Shown here in pieces: positions 7,290-14,650 of a DNA stretch of 22,810 bases; position 1 is the stretch's first letter; each line of letters begins with the position of its first letter. Below the pieces are notes generated by a model. That model saw only the letters and a list, made by a program, of their open reading frames with translations. It was not told where the DNA came from and did no database searches. The stretch comes from a virus. The stretch covers positions 1-22,810 of IMG/VR virus record IMGVR_UViG_3300042473_000204; one strand, 5' to 3'. The position numbers were made by a program, and so were the translations under genes.

Positions 7290-7512
7290 TCTGCGTGATC
7301 ACTTATTCTCAGCATTAGAGAGATTAGATAATGATGAGCTCACAATGGAGGAGCTTAATAAGGAAATTGAAAAAGCACAGGCAGTGGCAACAATTGGATC
7401 TGTTATCATCCAGAGTGCAAAGATTGAGGTTGATTACATCAAGGCAACCGGCATGATTGAGTCAAGCTCTGAACTATTCAAAGGTATTAACGAACAAAAG
7501 AGATTATCATGA
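7267..7512 (+). CDS. small conserved phage protein, helical
   Basis: An 81-residue protein starting MARNKINDLRDHLFSALERL, with further helical segments (MEELNKEIEKAQAVATIG, then VIIQSAKIEVDYIKATG). I recall very similar proteins in phages of Bacteroidota, but no function is known. The sequence is charged and alpha-helical without motifs. It overlaps the HNH gene by 23 bases and the next gene by ATGA, so it belongs to the same operon. Confidence 0.65.
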   Translation: MARNKINDLRDHLFSALERLDNDELTMEELNKEIEKAQAVATIGSVIIQSAKIEVDYIKATGMIESSSELFKGINEQKRLS

Positions 7513-7784
7513 AAACAGCATTACAGCAAGCATTTGCAAGATTAGAGGAGTTACATCCATCACTGTTTGACATACACACTGAGAAAGGCAGGACATTTGT
7601 CAATGAGTTTAGTAAGTTTTTAGAGGTGGAGAGGGAGCAGATATTAGATTCGAGACTTGATGGTTTCAAAAATTCAGCAGAAGGATGGAATGGTGAATAT
7701 CCATTTGAAGGAATGACAGATTATTACATTTCATTAGACATTAAAAATGATGATTATTACAACGAAACCTTTAAATCAGAATAG
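7509..7784 (+). CDS. cassette-array small protein 1 (MKTA...YYNETFKSE)
   Basis: A 91-residue acidic helical protein starting MKTALQQAFARLEELHP and ending NDDYYNETFKSE. Start and end match those of the ORFs at 8365 and 8561, while the middle differs. An EVEREQILDSRLDG segment corresponds to VEQEQINNAHYEG and MEKQQIKNAYYTG in the other two, which points to a shared ancestral fold. The DNA across its stop and the next start (7758-7791) is repeated at the later junctions. Function unknown. Confidence 0.65.
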   Translation: MKTALQQAFARLEELHPSLFDIHTEKGRTFVNEFSKFLEVEREQILDSRLDGFKNSAEGWNGEYPFEGMTDYYISLDIKNDDYYNETFKSE

Positions 7785-7791
7785 AATGAAA
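7758..7791 (+). repeat. junction repeat copy 1
   Basis: A 34-base sequence identical to 8533-8566. It covers the last codons (YNETFKSE), TAG, one A and ATGAAA of the next ORF, so it spans the end of one gene and the start of the next. Confidence 0.85.
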
Positions 7792-8142
7792 GCAAATGAA
7801 TTGAGAATAGGTAATATTGTAAGTATGCATAGATATATTGGAAACTATTGGAGCTGGACATTTATTTCTCATGAAGATATTTATAGTATTGCTTGCGGTA
7901 ATGAAAAGAACTATAATCCAATACCACTAACAGAAGAATGGTTATTGAAGTTTGGAGCAAAAGAATTAAATGCCAAAAGAGATGTTTTAAAAGAGTTTGT
8001 TTTAAAAACAGTTAGAATTGAAATGTCTAATAGTGGTAATTTTTACTATAAAAATTCAAAATTAATTTTAGAATCAGTCCACCAATTGCAAAACCTTTAC
8101 TTTGCATTAACAGGTAAAGAATTAACCTTTAAATCAGAATAG
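7786..8142 (+). CDS. small phage protein of the MKANELRIGN type
   Basis: A 118-residue protein from the ATG two bases after the previous stop. It has the pattern I recall from a common but unnamed small-protein family of Bacteroidota phages: MKANELRIGN at the start, PLTEEWLLKFGA in the middle (about residues 50-61) and VHQLQNLYFALTGKEL near the end. Its last residues, LTFKSE, and the DNA below them match the unrelated neighbours' YYNETFKSE ends, so the 3' end seems to have been joined to a shared junction. Upstream in-frame ATGs at 7747 onward lie inside the previous gene and are unlikely starts. Confidence 0.75.
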   Translation: MKANELRIGNIVSMHRYIGNYWSWTFISHEDIYSIACGNEKNYNPIPLTEEWLLKFGAKELNAKRDVLKEFVLKTVRIEMSNSGNFYYKNSKLILESVHQLQNLYFALTGKELTFKSE

Positions 8143-8145
8143 AAT
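8124..8145 (+). repeat. junction repeat copy 2 (short)
   Basis: A 22-base match to the core of the other junctions (AACCTTTAAATCAG plus the TAG and GAAT). Here the downstream part is lost: instead of ATGAAA a hairpin follows. Confidence 0.8.
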
Positions 8146-8174
8146 ACCATAACGAGCGCATCCTCGAAATGGTA
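8145..8174 (+). other. hairpin in the gap of the cassette array
   Basis: TACCAT (8145-8150) pairs with ATGGTA (8169-8174), and inside it GAG (8154-8156) pairs with CTC (8163-8165), separated by a symmetric 3x3 internal loop. It fills most of the only non-coding gap of the array. No T-run follows, so it is not an ordinary terminator. Confidence 0.5.
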
Positions 8175-8189
8175 GTAAAATAAAATAAA

Positions 8190-8420
8190 ATGGAAATACA
8201 GAAAATAAAAAAGCGGTTACAGACAATTGAAAAAGAACTTGAAAAAGTAAGGAATTATAGTGCTCAAGCTGATGGCTGGCAAACACAACGCTTTGCAAAG
8301 AAGTCAAGGAAATATGATTATTTAGCATTAGAAAAATTTGAATTACAGAAAAAACTTGAAGAATATGAAAACAGCAGTAGAACAATTTACATTAGCCTTA
8401 ATAAGAGCAAAGGCAATTAA
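8190..8420 (+). CDS. coiled-coil small protein with a chimeric C-terminus
   Basis: A 76-residue protein: IQKIKKRLQTIEKELEKV and LEKFELQKKLEEYE are coiled-coil-like segments flanking a central DGWQTQRFAKKSRKYDY. From residue 60 onward the codons lie, in another frame, inside the next ORF, which begins at 8365 exactly where a 103-base repeat begins. The last ~17 residues (SSRTIYISLNKSKGN) are therefore probably not original: the gene was cut when the repeat unit was joined to it. Family unknown. Confidence 0.6.
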   Translation: MEIQKIKKRLQTIEKELEKVRNYSAQADGWQTQRFAKKSRKYDYLALEKFELQKKLEEYENSSRTIYISLNKSKGN

Positions 8421-8467
8421 ACCCAGTGCAACAAAAGATTTTGTAAAAGCAAATACAGATGCATTGG
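8365..8467 (+). repeat. 103-base direct repeat, copy 1
   Basis: Identical base for base to 8760-8862, 395 bases downstream. It begins exactly at the ATG of the small ORF and encodes its first 34 residues, then diverges. Confidence 0.95.
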
Positions 8468-8559
8468 CAGTTGAGCAAGAACAAATTAATAATGCACATT
8501 ATGAAGGTAGTGAAAATTACAGGAGACAATACTACAACGAAACCTTTAAATCAGAATAG
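8365..8559 (+). CDS. cassette-array small protein 2 (MKTAVEQF...YYNETFKSE)
   Basis: A 64-residue protein starting inside the previous gene. Its first 34 residues (MKTAVEQFTLALIRAKAI to NTDAL) are encoded by the 103-base repeat and are identical to those of the ORF at 8760. Its C-terminal half (VEQEQINNAHYEG, then QYYNETFKSE) matches the family pattern of the ORFs at 7509 and 8561. It reads as a recombinant of an N-terminal and a C-terminal module. Function unknown. Confidence 0.65.
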   Translation: MKTAVEQFTLALIRAKAIKPSATKDFVKANTDALAVEQEQINNAHYEGSENYRRQYYNETFKSE

Positions 8560-8578
8560 AATGAAAACAGCAGTAGAA
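8530..8578 (+). repeat. junction repeat copy 3
   Basis: 49 bases identical to 8729-8777, covering YYNETFKSE, stop, one A, and MKTAVE of the next ORF. Confidence 0.9.
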
Positions 8579-8758
8579 TGGTTGATTGAAAAAATGTCTT
8601 TAGAAGATGTTTGTAAATACTCTAATGAATTAGCAGAAGCCAAAGAAATGGAGAAGCAGCAGATAAAAAATGCTTATTACACTGGTGGCGATGATGTTGA
8701 AGATAACAGAGATAGAGAAGCTGAAAATTACTACAACGAAACCTTTAAATCAGAATAG
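8561..8758 (+). CDS. cassette-array small protein 3 (MKTAVEW...YYNETFKSE)
   Basis: A 65-residue acidic protein. It starts MKTAVEWLIEKM, has the central AKEMEKQQIKNAYYTGGDD that I recall from many Bacteroidota phage small ORFs, and ends ENYYNETFKSE. It may be the archetype of the local family, since both ends and the core are intact. It begins two bases after the previous stop. No metal site or membrane segment; function unknown. Confidence 0.7.
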   Translation: MKTAVEWLIEKMSLEDVCKYSNELAEAKEMEKQQIKNAYYTGGDDVEDNRDREAENYYNETFKSE

Positions 8759-8777
8759 AATGAAAACAGCAGTAGAA
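8729..8777 (+). repeat. junction repeat copy 4
   Basis: 49 bases identical to 8530-8578; its downstream part runs on into the second copy of the 103-base repeat. Confidence 0.9.
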
Positions 8778-8862
8778 CAATTTACATTAGCCTTAATAAG
8801 AGCAAAGGCAATTAAACCCAGTGCAACAAAAGATTTTGTAAAAGCAAATACAGATGCATTGG
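8760..8862 (+). repeat. 103-base direct repeat, copy 2
   Basis: Identical to 8365-8467. Both copies start at the ATG; after TTGG they diverge (CAGTTG against AAATAG). Confidence 0.95.
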
Positions 8863-8981
8863 AAATAGAAATTAAACAAGCACATGAATATGCTGAATTT
8901 GCAATTAGATGTGATAGAAAAGATATGAAAATATTAAACTTTGATGGATATATTAAACTTAATTCAGAACAATGCAAATAA
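8760..8981 (+). CDS. cassette-array small protein 4, variant C-terminus
   Basis: A 73-residue protein whose first 34 residues equal those of the ORF at 8365, followed by a different C-terminal half (KQAHEYAEFAIRCDRKDMKI). It lacks the YYNETFKSE ending and is the last member of the array. The new ending shows that the same N-terminal module can carry different C-terminal halves. It overlaps the next micro-ORF by 10 bases. Confidence 0.65.
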   Translation: MKTAVEQFTLALIRAKAIKPSATKDFVKANTDALEIEIKQAHEYAEFAIRCDRKDMKILNFDGYIKLNSEQCK

Positions 8982-9174: not shown

Positions 9175-9258
9175 ATGGCAGAAGAGGCTAAAATGGCACT
9201 GTTACTTTTCACAGTGGGAATAATATTAATACTTATAGGATTATGGAAGAAATCTTAA
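9175..9258 (+). CDS. 27-residue single-pass membrane micro-protein
   Basis: MAEEAKM followed by one hydrophobic helix (LLLFTVGIILILIGLW) and a KKS end, so probably N-out. It overlaps the ATG of the DnaA-IV-like gene by 16 bases. It resembles the 29-residue membrane micro-protein at 6353 in plan but not in sequence. Function unknown. Confidence 0.45.
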   Translation: MAEEAKMALLLFTVGIILILIGLWKKS

Positions 9259-9611
9259 AATACATTGAGGATAACAACCTCAAAGCGAGACACAGATACA
9301 GAAAATACAGTTACAAAAGATTTTACCTGTACAACCTGCTAAGGAATGAAGGGTTCACTCTTTATGATATAGCAAATATGTTTGAAAGGGATCATGCAAC
9401 TGTAATCTATGGCATCAAAACACACAAAGATTTGATTTCAGTTAAGGATAAACTTTACCTTGATCATGTTGATGAGTTGATTGTCATGTTTGAGTCAACA
9501 CCTAAGTCATACAGTTTAGTAACAGATGTTATCAACTGTTATAGTTTAGAGAGATTGAAGAAAATTAAGTTCAGAATTAAAAACAACATGTATAAAGATA
9601 TATCTTTGTAG
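9243..9611 (+). CDS. DnaA domain-IV-like DNA-binding protein, candidate replication initiator
   Basis: A 122-residue protein. Residues about 24-64 match the plan of the C-terminal DNA-binding domain of DnaA: a basic helix (YKRFYLYNLLRNEG), then FTLYDIANMF and the signature helix ERDHATVIYGIK, which parallels GGRDHTTVLHA of bacterial DnaA. The bases-contacting Asp-His pair is kept (D50, H51), while the following Thr of E. coli DnaA is Ala here (A52), so the preferred site may differ from the usual DnaA box. There is no AAA+ ATPase domain; residues 65-122 are unassigned and helical. It lies directly upstream of the iteron region at 9723-9924, which suggests an initiator, an origin-binding regulator, or a decoy of host DnaA. 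Confidence 0.75.
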   Translation: MEEILKYIEDNNLKARHRYRKYSYKRFYLYNLLRNEGFTLYDIANMFERDHATVIYGIKTHKDLISVKDKLYLDHVDELIVMFESTPKSYSLVTDVINCYSLERLKKIKFRIKNNMYKDISL

Positions 9612-9641
9612 TCATACTGTTTGATTTTATTTATTGAAAAG

Positions 9642-9672
9642 ACCCTCTTTGCACTGCATGGAGGGTTTTTTT
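9642..9672 (+). terminator. intrinsic terminator after the accessory operon
   Basis: ACCCTC (9642-9647) pairs with GAGGGT (9661-9666), and a run of seven T follows (9666-9672). It closes the operon that starts at the 5944 promoter and separates it from the candidate origin. Confidence 0.85.
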
Positions 9673-9722
9673 GTGCTTTATTGCAATAGTAAAGTATTTT
9701 ATAACTAATTGATAATCAACAC

Positions 9723-9924
9723 TTGCAAGGGTAACAATGGTAAAAATGCTTTTTTTGAAAACTTTAAATAGAAATAATTTATTTTTATTTTTAAAATAAA
9801 ATATTATTTATCTCATATATAATTAAAATTTTTACCCTTGTATCCCTTGCAACCCAGTAAAACATTGACTTTTTACCCTTGCTTTACCCTTGCAAAATTA
9901 GATTTTACCCTTGCACCCCTTGCA
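9723..9924. repeat. iteron-like repeats of TTTACCCTTGCA (candidate origin region)
   Basis: One inverted copy at 9723-9734 (TTGCAAGGGTAA) and direct copies at 9831-9840, 9872-9882, 9883-9895 and 9904-9915, with degenerate units at 9841-9852 (TATCCCTTGCAA) and 9915-9924 (ACCCCTTGCA). Copies at 9872 and 9883 touch each other. Between the inverted copy and the first direct copy lies a 92% A+T tract. This is the layout of iteron origins: initiator sites beside a melting region. It fills the 410-base gap 9612-10021 together with a terminator and a promoter. Confidence 0.75.
9741..9830. other. AT-rich tract, candidate DNA-unwinding element
   Basis: By hand count, 83 of 90 bases are A or T, well above the surrounding ~65%. 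It is flanked on both sides by iteron copies and contains no ORF. Confidence 0.55.
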
Positions 9925-9950
9925 TATATGTTTTTTTATTTTTATATTTG
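9920..9950 (+). promoter_or_regulatory. promoter for the primase-helicase operon, overlapping the last iteron
   Basis: TTG at 9920-9922 and TATATTTG at 9943-9950 with a 20-base spacer fit the Bacteroidota promoter pattern. The TTG is part of the last iteron copy, so the iteron-binding protein would be expected to affect this promoter. The leader of about 65-90 bases after it contains a possible hairpin (TTCACGTT at 9989-9996 with AACGTGAG at 10019-10026). Confidence 0.65.
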
Positions 9951-10045
9951 CAAAGTGTAGTTTAGGCTTAGCGGCTTGACGCAAGTGGTTCACGTTCCAG
10001 CTGCACTCTTTTTTTAACAACGTGAGCAAAAACGTAAAAAATATT

Positions 10046-12172
10046 ATGATTAGTTATTGGATTAGTGTAAAAGACACAAAAAAAGATTTTGAACGTACAT
10101 CAGTTGATGAACTTTTAAATCGTATCAAGAATGGTTATTGGAAAGACCAAGTTGAACTGGTTCGTTCTGAACAAGATGAAGCAAGAAAAAAACAACAAAA
10201 GGCTGTACTTCCAAGTGTAACTATCGGTGGAGTATTTAATGAAAGAAAAGAACAAGGACTTGAAAAGCATTCAGGTTTTATCTGTATTGATGTTGATAAT
10301 TATACAGATAGATCTAAAATAAATGATGATCCATATACATATGCTTTATTTAGTTCTGTTGGAGGTAATGGATTTGCAGTTATTTGCAAAGTTGACCCAT
10401 TAAAACATAAAGAATCTTATAATTTTATTGCTGAACATTATTTTTTAAATTATGGAATAACAGTTGATCCAGCTCCAAAGAATGTTGCAAGCTGTAGATT
10501 TGTAAGTTATGACCCGGATTTGTTTTTAAATACAAAATCCAAAAAATCAAAGTACAAAATTGAAAAGAAAAGACTGCCTAAAAACATTTCTATAATTGTA
10601 CCTAAAACAGATATTGGTGAATTAGTAAATCAAGTCACCAAATCAGTGGCCGATGAATATCATGATTATTTAGCTTTGTCATTTTCAATTGCTGTTGGAT
10701 TTGATAATGATGGCCGCGAGTATTTTCACAAACTTTGTAGTTTTTCAGATAAGTATGATCCAGCTCAAACAGATAAGCAGTATGATATTGCTTTAAAAAG
10801 AACTGGAACGGGTATAACAGTAGGTACATTTTACTATTTTCTTAAAAAAGGTGGTGCTGATTTAACAAAATACAATTCAGATAAAGCAATTTCAAGTGTG
10901 AAACTGGCTAAAAGAATGAATACACCAAAGGTAGAAGTTGTTAAAGAGCTGGCAAGAGAGAAAAATATTGATGAAAATGAAGCTCTTGAGATAGTAAATG
11001 AAATTTTTGAGCGTAATGATATGGATATTAGGCATGAAGGAGGTGCTGAAAATATGATTATCAACTGTTCTAATTTTATTTTAAAACGGTTTAACATTAG
11101 AAAAAATCTAATTAGCAGAAAATATGAGTGGAATGGGATACCAATGTATGATAAAGAATTTAATACGGTTTTCCTTGAATGCAGAATGACCTTTGATGAT
11201 AAGTCTATAACATTTGATATTGTAAATCGTATAATTCAATCAGTTGCTATACCAGAATACAATCCATTTTTTGAATATATTGAAGCAAATAAGCATAGAA
11301 TTTCAACTGGAAACATTCAAAAATTATGTGATTCTGTAAAAAGTAACACATCATTAAAAGATAGATTTATTAGAAAGTGGATGATTGGAATTGTAGCATG
11401 TATTTATGGCAATCCTGTACGTTCAGTTTTAGCATTAACAGGCGGTCAAAATACAGGAAAAACAGAATGGTTTAGACGATTACTTCCAAGTGCACTTCAA
11501 CCTTATTATGCTGAATCAAATTTAGATAGAGGTAAAGATGATGAACTATTGATGTGTGAAAAACTCATTGTCATGGATGATGAGATGGGAGGTAAGTCAA
11601 AGCAAGATGAAAAGAAATTCAAAGAATTAACATCAAAAAATTATTTTTCTCTTAGAGCTGCTTATGGTAGATATAATGAAGATTATAAAAGACTGGCTAT
11701 TTTATGTGGCACATCAAATGACCATCAGTTAATAAATGATTCAACAGGTAACACAAGAATTTTACCCATAGAGGTAGTGTCTATTGATCATGCTTTATAC
11801 AATTCAATTGATAAAGATGATTTATTTATGGAGTTACATCGTGCATACACAAGTGGTGAGGTGTATAATTTAGTTGAAACTGAATTAAGTATTTTGAATG
11901 AAGTAGGTAGATCATTTGAATCTATACCATTTGAACGTGAGTTGATATTGAAATTTTTTGAAATACCATACAATAGAGGTGAATGGCTAACAGCAACTGA
12001 AATAAAGGATATTATTGAAACATATTCAAAACAGCGAATACTTTCTATGAAAAAATTAGGAAGTGAATTGAAACAAACTTTTGGAAATCCTATGTTTAAA
12101 GATAGGTCAAACAAATATTATGTAGAGAGAAAGTCTGAAATTATGGATCCATTTAATACTTTTTCGCTATGA
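10046..12172 (+). CDS. BT4734-like primase / VapE-like helicase
   Basis: A 708-residue replication protein. The N-terminal part (about 1-150) looks like the BT4734-like/VirE-N domain, with a FICIDVDNY strand holding D82 and D84, and NGFAVICKVD after it; this domain is thought to be related to primases, which I hold with moderate confidence. A linker follows, then a VapE-type SF3-like ATPase: Walker A GGQNTGKT at 466-473, Walker B LIVMDDE at 507-513, then a polar motif CGTSND near 555. The C-terminus (after about 620) is a small winged-helix-like region. I chose ATG 10046 because A-rich sequence precedes it; a GTG at 10022 would add eight residues. It overlaps the helicase gene by ATGA. Glu codons are almost all GAA, unlike most of the window. 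Confidence 0.85.
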   Translation: MISYWISVKDTKKDFERTSVDELLNRIKNGYWKDQVELVRSEQDEARKKQQKAVLPSVTIGGVFNERKEQGLEKHSGFICIDVDNYTDRSKINDDPYTYALFSSVGGNGFAVICKVDPLKHKESYNFIAEHYFLNYGITVDPAPKNVASCRFVSYDPDLFLNTKSKKSKYKIEKKRLPKNISIIVPKTDIGELVNQVTKSVADEYHDYLALSFSIAVGFDNDGREYFHKLCSFSDKYDPAQTDKQYDIALKRTGTGITVGTFYYFLKKGGADLTKYNSDKAISSVKLAKRMNTPKVEVVKELAREKNIDENEALEIVNEIFERNDMDIRHEGGAENMIINCSNFILKRFNIRKNLISRKYEWNGIPMYDKEFNTVFLECRMTFDDKSITFDIVNRIIQSVAIPEYNPFFEYIEANKHRISTGNIQKLCDSVKSNTSLKDRFIRKWMIGIVACIYGNPVRSVLALTGGQNTGKTEWFRRLLPSALQPYYAESNLDRGKDDELLMCEKLIVMDDEMGGKSKQDEKKFKELTSKNYFSLRAAYGRYNEDYKRLAILCGTSNDHQLINDSTGNTRILPIEVVSIDHALYNSIDKDDLFMELHRAYTSGEVYNLVETELSILNEVGRSFESIPFERELILKFFEIPYNRGEWLTATEIKDIIETYSKQRILSMKKLGSELKQTFGNPMFKDRSNKYYVERKSEIMDPFNTFSL

Positions 12173-13590
12173 TAGAATTGTATGATTATCAGAAACAGTA
12201 TATTTCAGAAATAAAAAAACACTTTGCAAATGGCAAAAAGCGTTTAGTATTATGTTCTGCAACTGGAAGTGGAAAAACAGTGATGTTTAGCTACATGACA
12301 AAACAAGCCTTTGAAAAAAATAAAAGGATTTTAATTTTAACAGATAGAAAAGAATTATTTAGTCAATCAAGTGGTGCACTGGTTGAAATGGGATTGCATT
12401 GTAATGAGATAAAGCCAAACAAAAAAGTAGATTTTTCACATTCTTTGTATGTTGGTATGATCCAAACAGTCACACGTAGAATTAAGAATGTAGAATATCA
12501 AGAATTAATTAAATCATTAGATTTGATTATTTTGGATGAAGCTCACAAATCTATATTTGATCCTATCTTTGAATATGTTTCAGATAAAACATTTGTAATT
12601 GGAGCAACAGCAACACCTCATCGTGAAGGAAAACAACAATCACTTGATAAATTTTACGATGAAATAGTTCAGGTGATAGACACACCAGATTTGATTATCA
12701 AAGAGAAATTATCACCATGCAAAACTTATGGAGTAAAAGTAGATTTATCTGGCATAAAAACTAAAAGTGGTGATTATGATGAGAAATCGATGGCCGACAA
12801 ATTCAGTGAAATAAAGTTATTTCATGGAGTATATGAAAATTATATAAGAATTTGTAATGGTAAAAAAGCAATTGTATTTGCTCCAAATGTAGAAAGCAGT
12901 CGCGAACTTGTTAATGACTGGACAGATTCAGGACTTCCAATAAAACATGTTGATTGCTACATGACAGATTTAGAACGAAAAGAAATAATTGAATGGTTTA
13001 AAAATACTGATGGTGCAATTATTTCAAACTATGGAATTTTAACTACCGGATTTGATGTTCCAAGTATTGAAGTAGTAATACTGTATAGAGCAACAAAATC
13101 ACTTCCTTTATTTTTACAAATGGTAGGAAGAGGATCAAGAATATCAGATGGCAAATATGAATTTATTTTACTTGATTTTGGTAATAATGTAAAAACTCAT
13201 AACTATTGGGAACATCCAAGACAATGGTCATTGAAAAAAAAAGAAAAGAAACAGGGAACTGCTCCAATTAAAGAATGTCCAAGTTGTTCTTTTTTAGTTC
13301 ATGCACCAGTAATGATATGTCCTGAATGTGGTCATGAATTTGAAAAATCTGAAAAAGAAAAAGAGCAACAAATAATTGCAGAATTAGTTTTGATGAGTGG
13401 TATTGACATAAAAAAACTTGCAGAAAAAGCATCAATACAACAACTAATTCAAATTCAAACAACAAAAGGATATCAAAAAAGCTGGATTTATCACTACTTA
13501 AAAACAGCTGATGATTTTAAAGAATATGGTAAAATAATGAAATATCACCATAGGTGGGCAACACATCAAATTCAAATGAGAAATTTATGA
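12169..13590 (+). CDS. SF2 DEAD/DEAH-box helicase with zinc ribbon
   Basis: A 473-residue protein with the superfamily-2 motif set: Q-like DYQKQYI (6-12), motif I ATGSGKT (31-37), motif II DEAH (123-126), motif III in FVIGATATPHR (142-152), and motif VI QMVGRGSR (317-324). A four-cysteine zinc ribbon follows (C370, C373, C384, C387; CPSC and CPEC) with a helical tail. This architecture is typical of phage helicases of the Res/SSL2 type placed beside replication nucleases. It overlaps its neighbours at both ends by ATGA and shares their GAA-rich codon use, so the three genes 10046-13931 behave as one block. Confidence 0.92.
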   Translation: MIELYDYQKQYISEIKKHFANGKKRLVLCSATGSGKTVMFSYMTKQAFEKNKRILILTDRKELFSQSSGALVEMGLHCNEIKPNKKVDFSHSLYVGMIQTVTRRIKNVEYQELIKSLDLIILDEAHKSIFDPIFEYVSDKTFVIGATATPHREGKQQSLDKFYDEIVQVIDTPDLIIKEKLSPCKTYGVKVDLSGIKTKSGDYDEKSMADKFSEIKLFHGVYENYIRICNGKKAIVFAPNVESSRELVNDWTDSGLPIKHVDCYMTDLERKEIIEWFKNTDGAIISNYGILTTGFDVPSIEVVILYRATKSLPLFLQMVGRGSRISDGKYEFILLDFGNNVKTHNYWEHPRQWSLKKKEKKQGTAPIKECPSCSFLVHAPVMICPECGHEFEKSEKEKEQQIIAELVLMSGIDIKKLAEKASIQQLIQIQTTKGYQKSWIYHYLKTADDFKEYGKIMKYHHRWATHQIQMRNL

Positions 13591-14048: not shown

Positions 14049-14078
14049 TTGTACTTATGCAATCTTTTCTTATCTTTG
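14049..14078 (+). promoter_or_regulatory. Bacteroidota-type promoter of the recombination operon
   Basis: TTG at 14049-14051 and TATCTTTG at 14071-14078 with a 19-base spacer, the same geometry as the promoter at 5944. It lies inside a false upstream extension of the ERF frame, which fixes the real start at 14096. The half-sites TATTAAC (14008-14014) and GTTAATA (14034-14040) lie upstream, as at 5904-5925. Confidence 0.75.
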
Positions 14079-14095
14079 ATGAAAATAAAAACAGT

Positions 14096-14650
14096 ATGGA
14101 AAAAGAAATCAAAACAGCGACTGAGAAAATCAAGGAGCTAAATGAGTTAGGTAACACCTTGACTCTACACCAAAAACTACACCGGGCAAAGTTAGCCATT
14201 GGTAAGGTAGTTAAGAACGCACAAAGCCATCATTCAAAGTATGCTGACCTCAATGCTATCATGGCAGAGGTTGAGCCTGTATTACTTGAGAATGGCTTAA
14301 TCTTATTACAGCCTATCCAAGCCAACAGTGTGTGCACTCAGATTGTTGACATTGACTCAGGTGACATGATTGTATCTATTATGGACTTACCTCAAGGTAT
14401 TACACCTCAGCAAATGGGTAGTGCCATAACCTACTATCGTAGGTACACCCTTCAAAGTGCTCTCTCATTGCAGGCAGTGGATGATGATGGTCAACAGGCA
14501 TCAAAGGACCAACCAACTGAGACTAAAAAAGAGTCATTGTCAGATGCACGTTTCAAGGCTGCTCTTGCTAAGATTAAGGCTAATGAGTTCACAGTTGAGG
14601 AGTTGAAAGCTAAGTTTTATTTAACCAAAGAACAGGAGGCACAACTATGA
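14096..14650 (+). CDS. erf: ERF-family single-strand annealing protein
   Basis: A 184-residue protein with the ERF signature: YADLNAIMAEVEPVLLENGL (49-68), GITPQQMGSAITYYRRYTLQ (101-120) and a DDDG acidic turn (129-132). ERF proteins anneal complementary single strands after resection and support circularisation or recombination of phage DNA. The frame is open upstream to an ATG at 14057, but a promoter lies in that stretch, so translation must begin at 14096 (leader AAAAACAGT). A Lys/Ala/Glu-rich C-terminal tail (150-184) may bind partners. The exonuclease follows with an ATGA overlap. Glu is mostly GAG here, the opposite of the block upstream. Confidence 0.9.
   Translation: MEKEIKTATEKIKELNELGNTLTLHQKLHRAKLAIGKVVKNAQSHHSKYADLNAIMAEVEPVLLENGLILLQPIQANSVCTQIVDIDSGDMIVSIMDLPQGITPQQMGSAITYYRRYTLQSALSLQAVDDDGQQASKDQPTETKKESLSDARFKAALAKIKANEFTVEELKAKFYLTKEQEAQL

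Follow-up and report, generated by a model that had tools for sequence, protein, structure and literature searches.

The initiators of the SaPI and SCCmec replicons, Rep/PriRep1 (7PDS) and Cch2, combine a VapE/D5-type helicase with a primase domain and a C-terminal DNA-binding domain, and cognate short repeats (iterons) adjoin their genes; iteron recognition by SaPI Rep and SCCmec Cch2 takes place via the C-terminal domain (PMC7581432). In the PLE replicon of Vibrio cholerae, the initiator and its iterons are swapped as a module, and Odn, a T5orf172 nuclease of phage ICP1 that bears the initiator's DNA-binding domain, cuts PLE origins and requires the iterons to do so (PMC8263062). Here we describe a phage locus that resembles these systems in several respects. 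It lies in a 22,810-base virus record (the window, meaning the whole stretch of DNA that was analysed), which also carries phage structural genes (terminase, portal, capsid).

Organization of the Locus

A stand-alone gene for a protein like DnaA domain IV (hereafter DnaA-IV), short repeats, an A+T tract, a promoter and a primase-helicase gene are all present where an earlier note on this DNA had placed them (Table 1). That note interpreted them as an origin read by the DnaA-IV protein; the origin-like module of iterons and A+T-rich DNA before the primase-helicase has held up, while the assignment of the iteron reader has not. Judged by sequence, positions 9724-9950 are most likely the replication origin of a Bacteroidota phage, and the best reading, which we regard as probable, is an origin working like a SaPI-type iteron replicon with the VapE-type primase-helicase as its initiator. 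As in SaPI and SCCmec, the replicase has a VapE/D5-type helicase, a primase domain and a predicted C-terminal DNA-binding domain, and its repeats adjoin its gene. We class the locus as working like the SaPI type and not as a member, because its repeats lie upstream of the replicase gene, unlike SaPI origins, which lie directly downstream of rep. It also differs from both SaPI and Cch2 in its two inverted arms around an A+T tract, in its BT4734-like primase domain and in belonging to a Bacteroidota phage.

Ahead of the DnaA-IV gene, positions 7509-8981 form a variable small-gene region, with several small open reading frames that carry a repeated terminal module (YYNETFKSE) and common internal repeats.

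Table 1. Features of the locus; positions are those of the window unless a contig is named.
Feature	Position	Strand	Basis or detail
Membrane-type micropeptide ORF, 27 aa (MAEEAKMALLLFTVGIILILIGLWKKS)	9175-9258	+	Overlaps start of DnaA-IV gene; sequence
Stand-alone DnaA domain-IV-like protein, 122 aa	9243-9611	+	Pfam, PDB profile matches, AF2 model
Terminator-like hairpin 3' of DnaA-IV gene	9637-9671	+	Inverted repeat; alignment
Left repeat arm, inverted	9724-9746	-	CCCTTGCA 9724-9731, weaker TTTTTACCATTG 9735-9746
A+T tract, 83 bp, 91.6% A+T, proposed melting region	9747-9829		Base composition
Right repeat arm, six CCCTTG copies	9831-9924	+	Starts 9835, 9844, 9876, 9887, 9908, 9917
Putative promoter: TTG (9920-9922), 20 nt, TATATTTG (9943-9950)	9920-9950	+	Sequence
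Structured leader RNA, type I	9954-10025	+	Covariation; covariance-model matches
Leader helices	P1 9954-9960/10001-10007; P2 9962-9967/9974-9979; P3 9986-9988/9997-9999
Leader pseudoknot and U-tract	Loop 9989-9996 with tail 10019-10025; U-tract 10009-10015
Second, partial tail copy before start codon	10030-10035	+	Permutation test
Primase-helicase, 708 aa, proposed initiator	10046-12172	+	Pfam; 7PDS PriRep1; AF2 model
SF2 helicase (ResIII/DEAD), next gene of cluster	12169-13590	+	Pfam
ERF single-strand annealing protein	14057-14650	+	Pfam; 90-96% conserved beyond swapped cassette
T5orf172-winged helix nuclease, 183-185 aa	L012:1169-1726; L031:3229-3780; L032:2967-3518		Inside origin, same place

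Repeats Around an A+T Tract

The repeats are beyond chance: CCCTTGC occurs six times on the two strands within 9672-9950 (279 bases), and the best of 2000 dinucleotide shuffles reached four. In its degenerate form, TTTACCCTTGC with at most one mismatch, the repeat has five copies in the 22.8-kb record, all within 9725-9914, and the same word read backwards has none. The claim that iterons flank the A+T tract stands for this degenerate form and fails for the exact 12-mer TTTACCCTTGCA, which has only two copies (9883-9894 and 9904-9915), the remainder being variants, and is absent from the left side. The left arm of the window holds one clear inverted copy and weaker ones, and in L017-L029 the same site holds CAAGGG two or three times. 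Between the arms lies the 83-bp stretch with the highest A+T content of the window.

The elements TTG-N20-TATATTTG downstream fit the consensus of a Bacteroidota-type promoter. Its TTG lies within the last repeat copy, as would suit repeats that are operators only and let the replicase, or else a regulator, shut down transcription from the replicase promoter. We consider this improbable as the full explanation, given that an inverted left arm is conserved some 200 bp further upstream, on the far side of the A+T tract, and that the geometry persists as primase identity falls from 100% to 70%; one site can be both operator and origin.

To follow the repeats further, 80 relatives of the primase were taken for a distant comparison. 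Wherever upstream sequence is available for a primase at least 80% identical, CCCTTG repeats stand before it in the same two-arm arrangement, apart from the cases with a nuclease in the origin. At greater distance, the word at this site drifts in concert with primase divergence, from CCCTTGC, still kept by L033 (71%), to CCTTTGC in L030 (76%) and CCTATGC in L034 (70%), with CCTTTGC again in L037 (70%). Among cultured phages the origin DNA has no match, and primase identity there does not exceed about 35% over most of the protein's length.

A Replicase Cassette Swapped Between Close Relatives

We compared eight IMG/VR contigs (L006-L013) whose DnaA-IV protein is 94-100% identical to that of the window. 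Their DNA is alike through the DnaA-IV gene and its terminator and then diverges, with the relatives that carry other replicases losing likeness just 3' of the terminator-like hairpin; likeness resumes beyond the cassette at the ERF gene. L006 and L009 have the repeats and primase of the window. The replicase is of the Prim-Pol type with TCCGAAATATTT repeats in L007 and L008, of the DUF3987 type with AGTTTACAGT repeats in L010 and L013, and of another VapE kind with no clear repeats in L011. In L012, the left arm and the tract are followed by a single right copy, a nuclease gene and a window-type primase. The repeats thus belong to the cassette and not to the DnaA-IV gene. On this sequence comparison, repeats, leader RNA and replicase most likely constitute a unit that phages exchange, with the switch just 3' of the terminator of the DnaA-IV gene, much as initiator and iterons move together in PLE.

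The wider set of loci agrees. Across 64 dereplicated loci with both a DnaA-IV gene and a replicase, we compared repeated words with protein identity: repeat similarity followed replicase identity (r 0.92, partial 0.91) far more closely than DnaA-IV identity (r 0.42, partial 0.26), permutation p-values over these loci being descriptive because the loci are related by shared history. The 134 pairs with DnaA-IV proteins at least 90% and replicases less than 40% identical have a mean repeat similarity of 0.016, and the sole pair among them at 1.0 (L007/L008) has a Prim-Pol replicase in common, encoded by the gene after the first. Each replicase family has words of its own: CCCTTGCA for the VapE family beginning MISYW, ACTGTAAAC for DUF3987, TCCGAAATA for Prim-Pol, and AAAGTGACA, GGTACACA, AGGGCACA and AGTACAC for further families.

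The DnaA-IV-Like Protein

The Pfam profile Bac_DnaA_C matches the 122-aa protein at E=6e-6 (26.6 bits, under the cut-off of 31.5), and a relative in L115 exceeds the cut-off. Moreover, the family profile matches the DnaA DNA-binding domains of E. coli and M. tuberculosis in the PDB (1j1v, 3pvp), and an AF2 model (pLDDT 87.5) has the DnaA DNA-binding domain 3pvp as its top, weak Foldseek match (E 0.25). By these profiles the protein is genuinely related to DnaA domain IV. It shares with 1J1V and 3PVP the helix-turn-helix fold and the RDHxxV signature; it differs in standing alone, in having about 50 extra C-terminal residues and, as the earlier note recognized, in lacking the AAA+ ATPase domain, the match being to domain IV only. 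Arg26 and the signature His51 are invariant across the family and align with DNA-contacting residues of DnaA, the former with the minor-groove Arg (1J1V), and together with the modelled fold they suggest DNA binding.

This predicted DNA binding, and the position of the gene, which in most loci that have it precedes the replicase by about 320-490 bp even when the replicases are very different, would be expected of a protein that binds the iterons and recruits the primase-helicase. The comparative evidence makes that role very unlikely. Five close relatives with 94-98% identical DnaA-IV proteins (L007, L008, L010, L011, L013) do not have the repeats of the window; all carry other replicases and four have different repeats. 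A search for the gene-iteron pairing in related phages, which had been suggested as a check, thus found the iterons missing where a near-identical DnaA-IV gene stays, the result by which the note itself would have its model refuted. Conversely, identical repeats adjoin DnaA-IV proteins that are only 35-43% identical or still more divergent. In addition, no DnaA-IV gene is detectable on contigs L030, L031, L032 and L035 (20-30 kb), and L031 (30 kb) keeps a CCCTTG origin. The Thr-to-Ala change in the signature, previously read as a fit to a non-standard site, loses that meaning among full-length Bacteroidota DnaA proteins, which read RDHTTV, RDHSTV or KDHATV; it was rejected as a change of specificity, since Ala is found in a full-length host DnaA as well.

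DnaA boxes were also rejected as sites of the DnaA-IV protein, being in no clear excess in the window (39 with at most one mismatch, 46.6 expected) or, over about 60 loci, upstream of the DnaA-IV gene or in the intergenic origin DNA; nor was a cluster of TTATnCACA boxes, the hallmark of a DnaA-dependent origin, found. Many iteron origins also require DnaA, but a host protein, DnaA or another, as reader of the repeats or of nearby boxes is scarcely credible here, given this lack of excess and repeats that vary with the phage replicase.

In the reading that we prefer, with the replicase as initiator, the DnaA-IV-like protein would be a separate DNA-binding protein kept at the locus, with sites other than the iterons. 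That it acts as a competitor of host DnaA or as a regulator of early genes are guesses. A membrane-type micropeptide open reading frame of 27-30 aa that overlaps the DnaA-IV start codon, similar to that in the window, was seen upstream of the DnaA-IV gene in 13 relatives read by eye and is apparently conserved.

The Primase-Helicase as Candidate Initiator

The primase-helicase comprises a BT4734-like N-terminal domain, PriCT-2, a VapE-like helicase (VapE/D5 type; Pfam 5.5e-29, and 7PDS at 2.5e-12 by profile) and a C-terminal winged helix at about residues 629-695. SaPI PriRep1 with double-stranded DNA (7PDS) is both its only sequence match in the PDB and its top fold match. In the AF2 model (pLDDT 82, pTM 0.57), residues 629-695, the last approximately 70 ordered residues, form an alpha-beta-alpha-alpha-beta-beta arrangement predicted to be a winged helix. 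The protein more likely starts at ATG 10046 (MISYW...) than at GTG 10022, because homologues begin there and the GTG lies within the RNA tail element.

Two contrasts point to the C-terminal domain as the probable repeat reader. A wing residue is Asn in proteins that accompany CCCTTG (the window, L017, L025, L029, L031, L033), Ser in L030 and Gln in L034, a small sample. Similarly, the replicases of L115 and L129 are 64-95% alike until the last 76 aa, where the figure drops to 37-44%, and they go with different repeats, AGGTACACA and AGGGCACA. We propose that the replicase binds the TTTACCCTTGC repeats of both arms through its C-terminal winged helix, that the A+T tract between them would then melt, and that the helicase would load itself and prime with its own primase domain. 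Several observations count against this model: GC skew is positive throughout the site with only a local dip, and is uninformative as an origin marker; the repeats lie on the other side of the gene from those of SaPI; the C-terminus evolves faster than the rest of the replicase anyway, so that L120, which has the same repeats as L115, goes down to 57-67% there; and L012 has lost most of its right-arm repeats with a primase still 99.6% identical.

A Nuclease Inside the Proposed Origin

The nucleases found in the origins of L012, L031 and L032 have an N-terminal T5orf172 domain (Pfam) and a C-terminal stretch that resembles the winged helix of the primase (49% over 61 residues in L031 and L032, 36% over 126 in L012). 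This fusion supports the winged helix as the repeat reader. By its architecture the protein looks like Odn of ICP1, a T5orf172 nuclease bearing an initiator's DNA-binding domain, and is a candidate for origin-directed cleavage. Unlike in PLE and Odn, the initiator is of an unrelated kind (a VapE winged helix and not RepA_N), and unlike for odn the gene lies within the origin, with most of the right-arm repeats lost. By replacing most of the right arm in L012, the nuclease would spare the origin of L012 itself. A nuclease in the origin suggests pressure for cassette exchange. No chimeric nucleases were found for the other replicase families.

Between leader and replicase, endonuclease-like open reading frames were observed in L010 (594 bases after the DnaA-IV stop) and L190 (395 bases after it, HNH-like by eye). 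They may be another sign that this gap attracts nuclease genes.

A Structured Leader RNA

Between the likely transcription start and the start codon of the replicase lies a predicted three-way junction, with its third loop paired to a tail that directly follows a U-tract. Among ten leaders of the window type, 94.7% of cells pair, with double-sided changes in 20 cells (matched by 0 of 500 shuffles) and a covariation score of 0.43, compared with 0.225 for shuffled and 0.01-0.09 for slid controls. The U-G pairs are compatible with the + strand only. Simple folding energies of the leaders, at z -2.8 to 0.1, do not decide the matter. A covariance model of the ten leaders recovered L052 at E 1.7e-7, where the primase is 51% identical; this type I leader is also present in L018, L022, L094, L098 and others.

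A second subclass has a 27-base core common to 63 stretches of viral contigs. The loop-tail pairing was examined by a loop-by-tail permutation test, because MAFFT columns set the pseudoknot of the second subclass out of register: for 12 distinct loops, pairing with the own tail exceeded that with foreign tails (98 pairs in total, reached by 0 of 20,000 permutations). A type II leader, with 25 distinct copies, precedes several replicases and diverse genes (L007:2286, L008:1256, L010:2232, L011:5735); its loop finds an exact partner in all 25 own combinations and in none of 175 others, and a second loop seemingly pairs with bases before a U-tract.

Rfam 15 gave no match at the gathering score in the window and 14 loci, and nothing relevant up to E 1. 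Cultured phages gave no type I match and only short chance matches to type II, and 301 genomes of one Bacteroidota family gave no leader RNA, in a search that had no positive control. Other structured-looking leaders were seen upstream of more distant primases (L042, L061, L071, L073, L079, L085); in two of these, L071 and L073, the upstream DNA contains the complement of a hairpin loop (CTTGCTC/GAGCAAG and CTTACTC/GAGTAAG).

The leader stands ahead of VapE, DUF3987 and other replicases and is therefore not the operator of one replicase. It may be a cis-acting translation switch, a transcription attenuator, or a terminated small RNA that acts on the tails. In comparison with the pseudoknot controls of plasmid rep leaders (IncI-type repZ), it is likewise structured and directly before a replication gene, its scaffold is conserved while its loops vary, and a loop forms a pseudoknot with sequence downstream; it differs in its phage context and its two tail copies, and the likeness is a resemblance only.

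Implications for Phage Replication

On these comparisons the replicase, and no longer the DnaA-like protein, would be the reader of the origin. A single phage lineage with at least four replicase-origin cassettes in a constant neighbourhood also amounts to a natural swap experiment, which makes iteron recognition by a VapE-type winged helix directly testable. The nuclease is apparently a second case of one built from the replicon's own initiator domain. The most novel part is the RNA structure ahead of phage replication genes, which is undescribed. Tentatively, and with considerable doubt, we suggest that it represents a novel phage RNA class, one that sets the timing of replication initiation or restrains it. 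A conserved three-way-junction scaffold would end in the U-tract, and the fast-changing loop would pair downstream with either of two sequences complementary to it, of which one is at the start codon. Such a choice would give each cassette a specificity of its own, like the incompatibility loops of plasmids, and the cassettes may be swapped under the pressure of nucleases that are directed at origins by a winged helix taken from the initiator itself.
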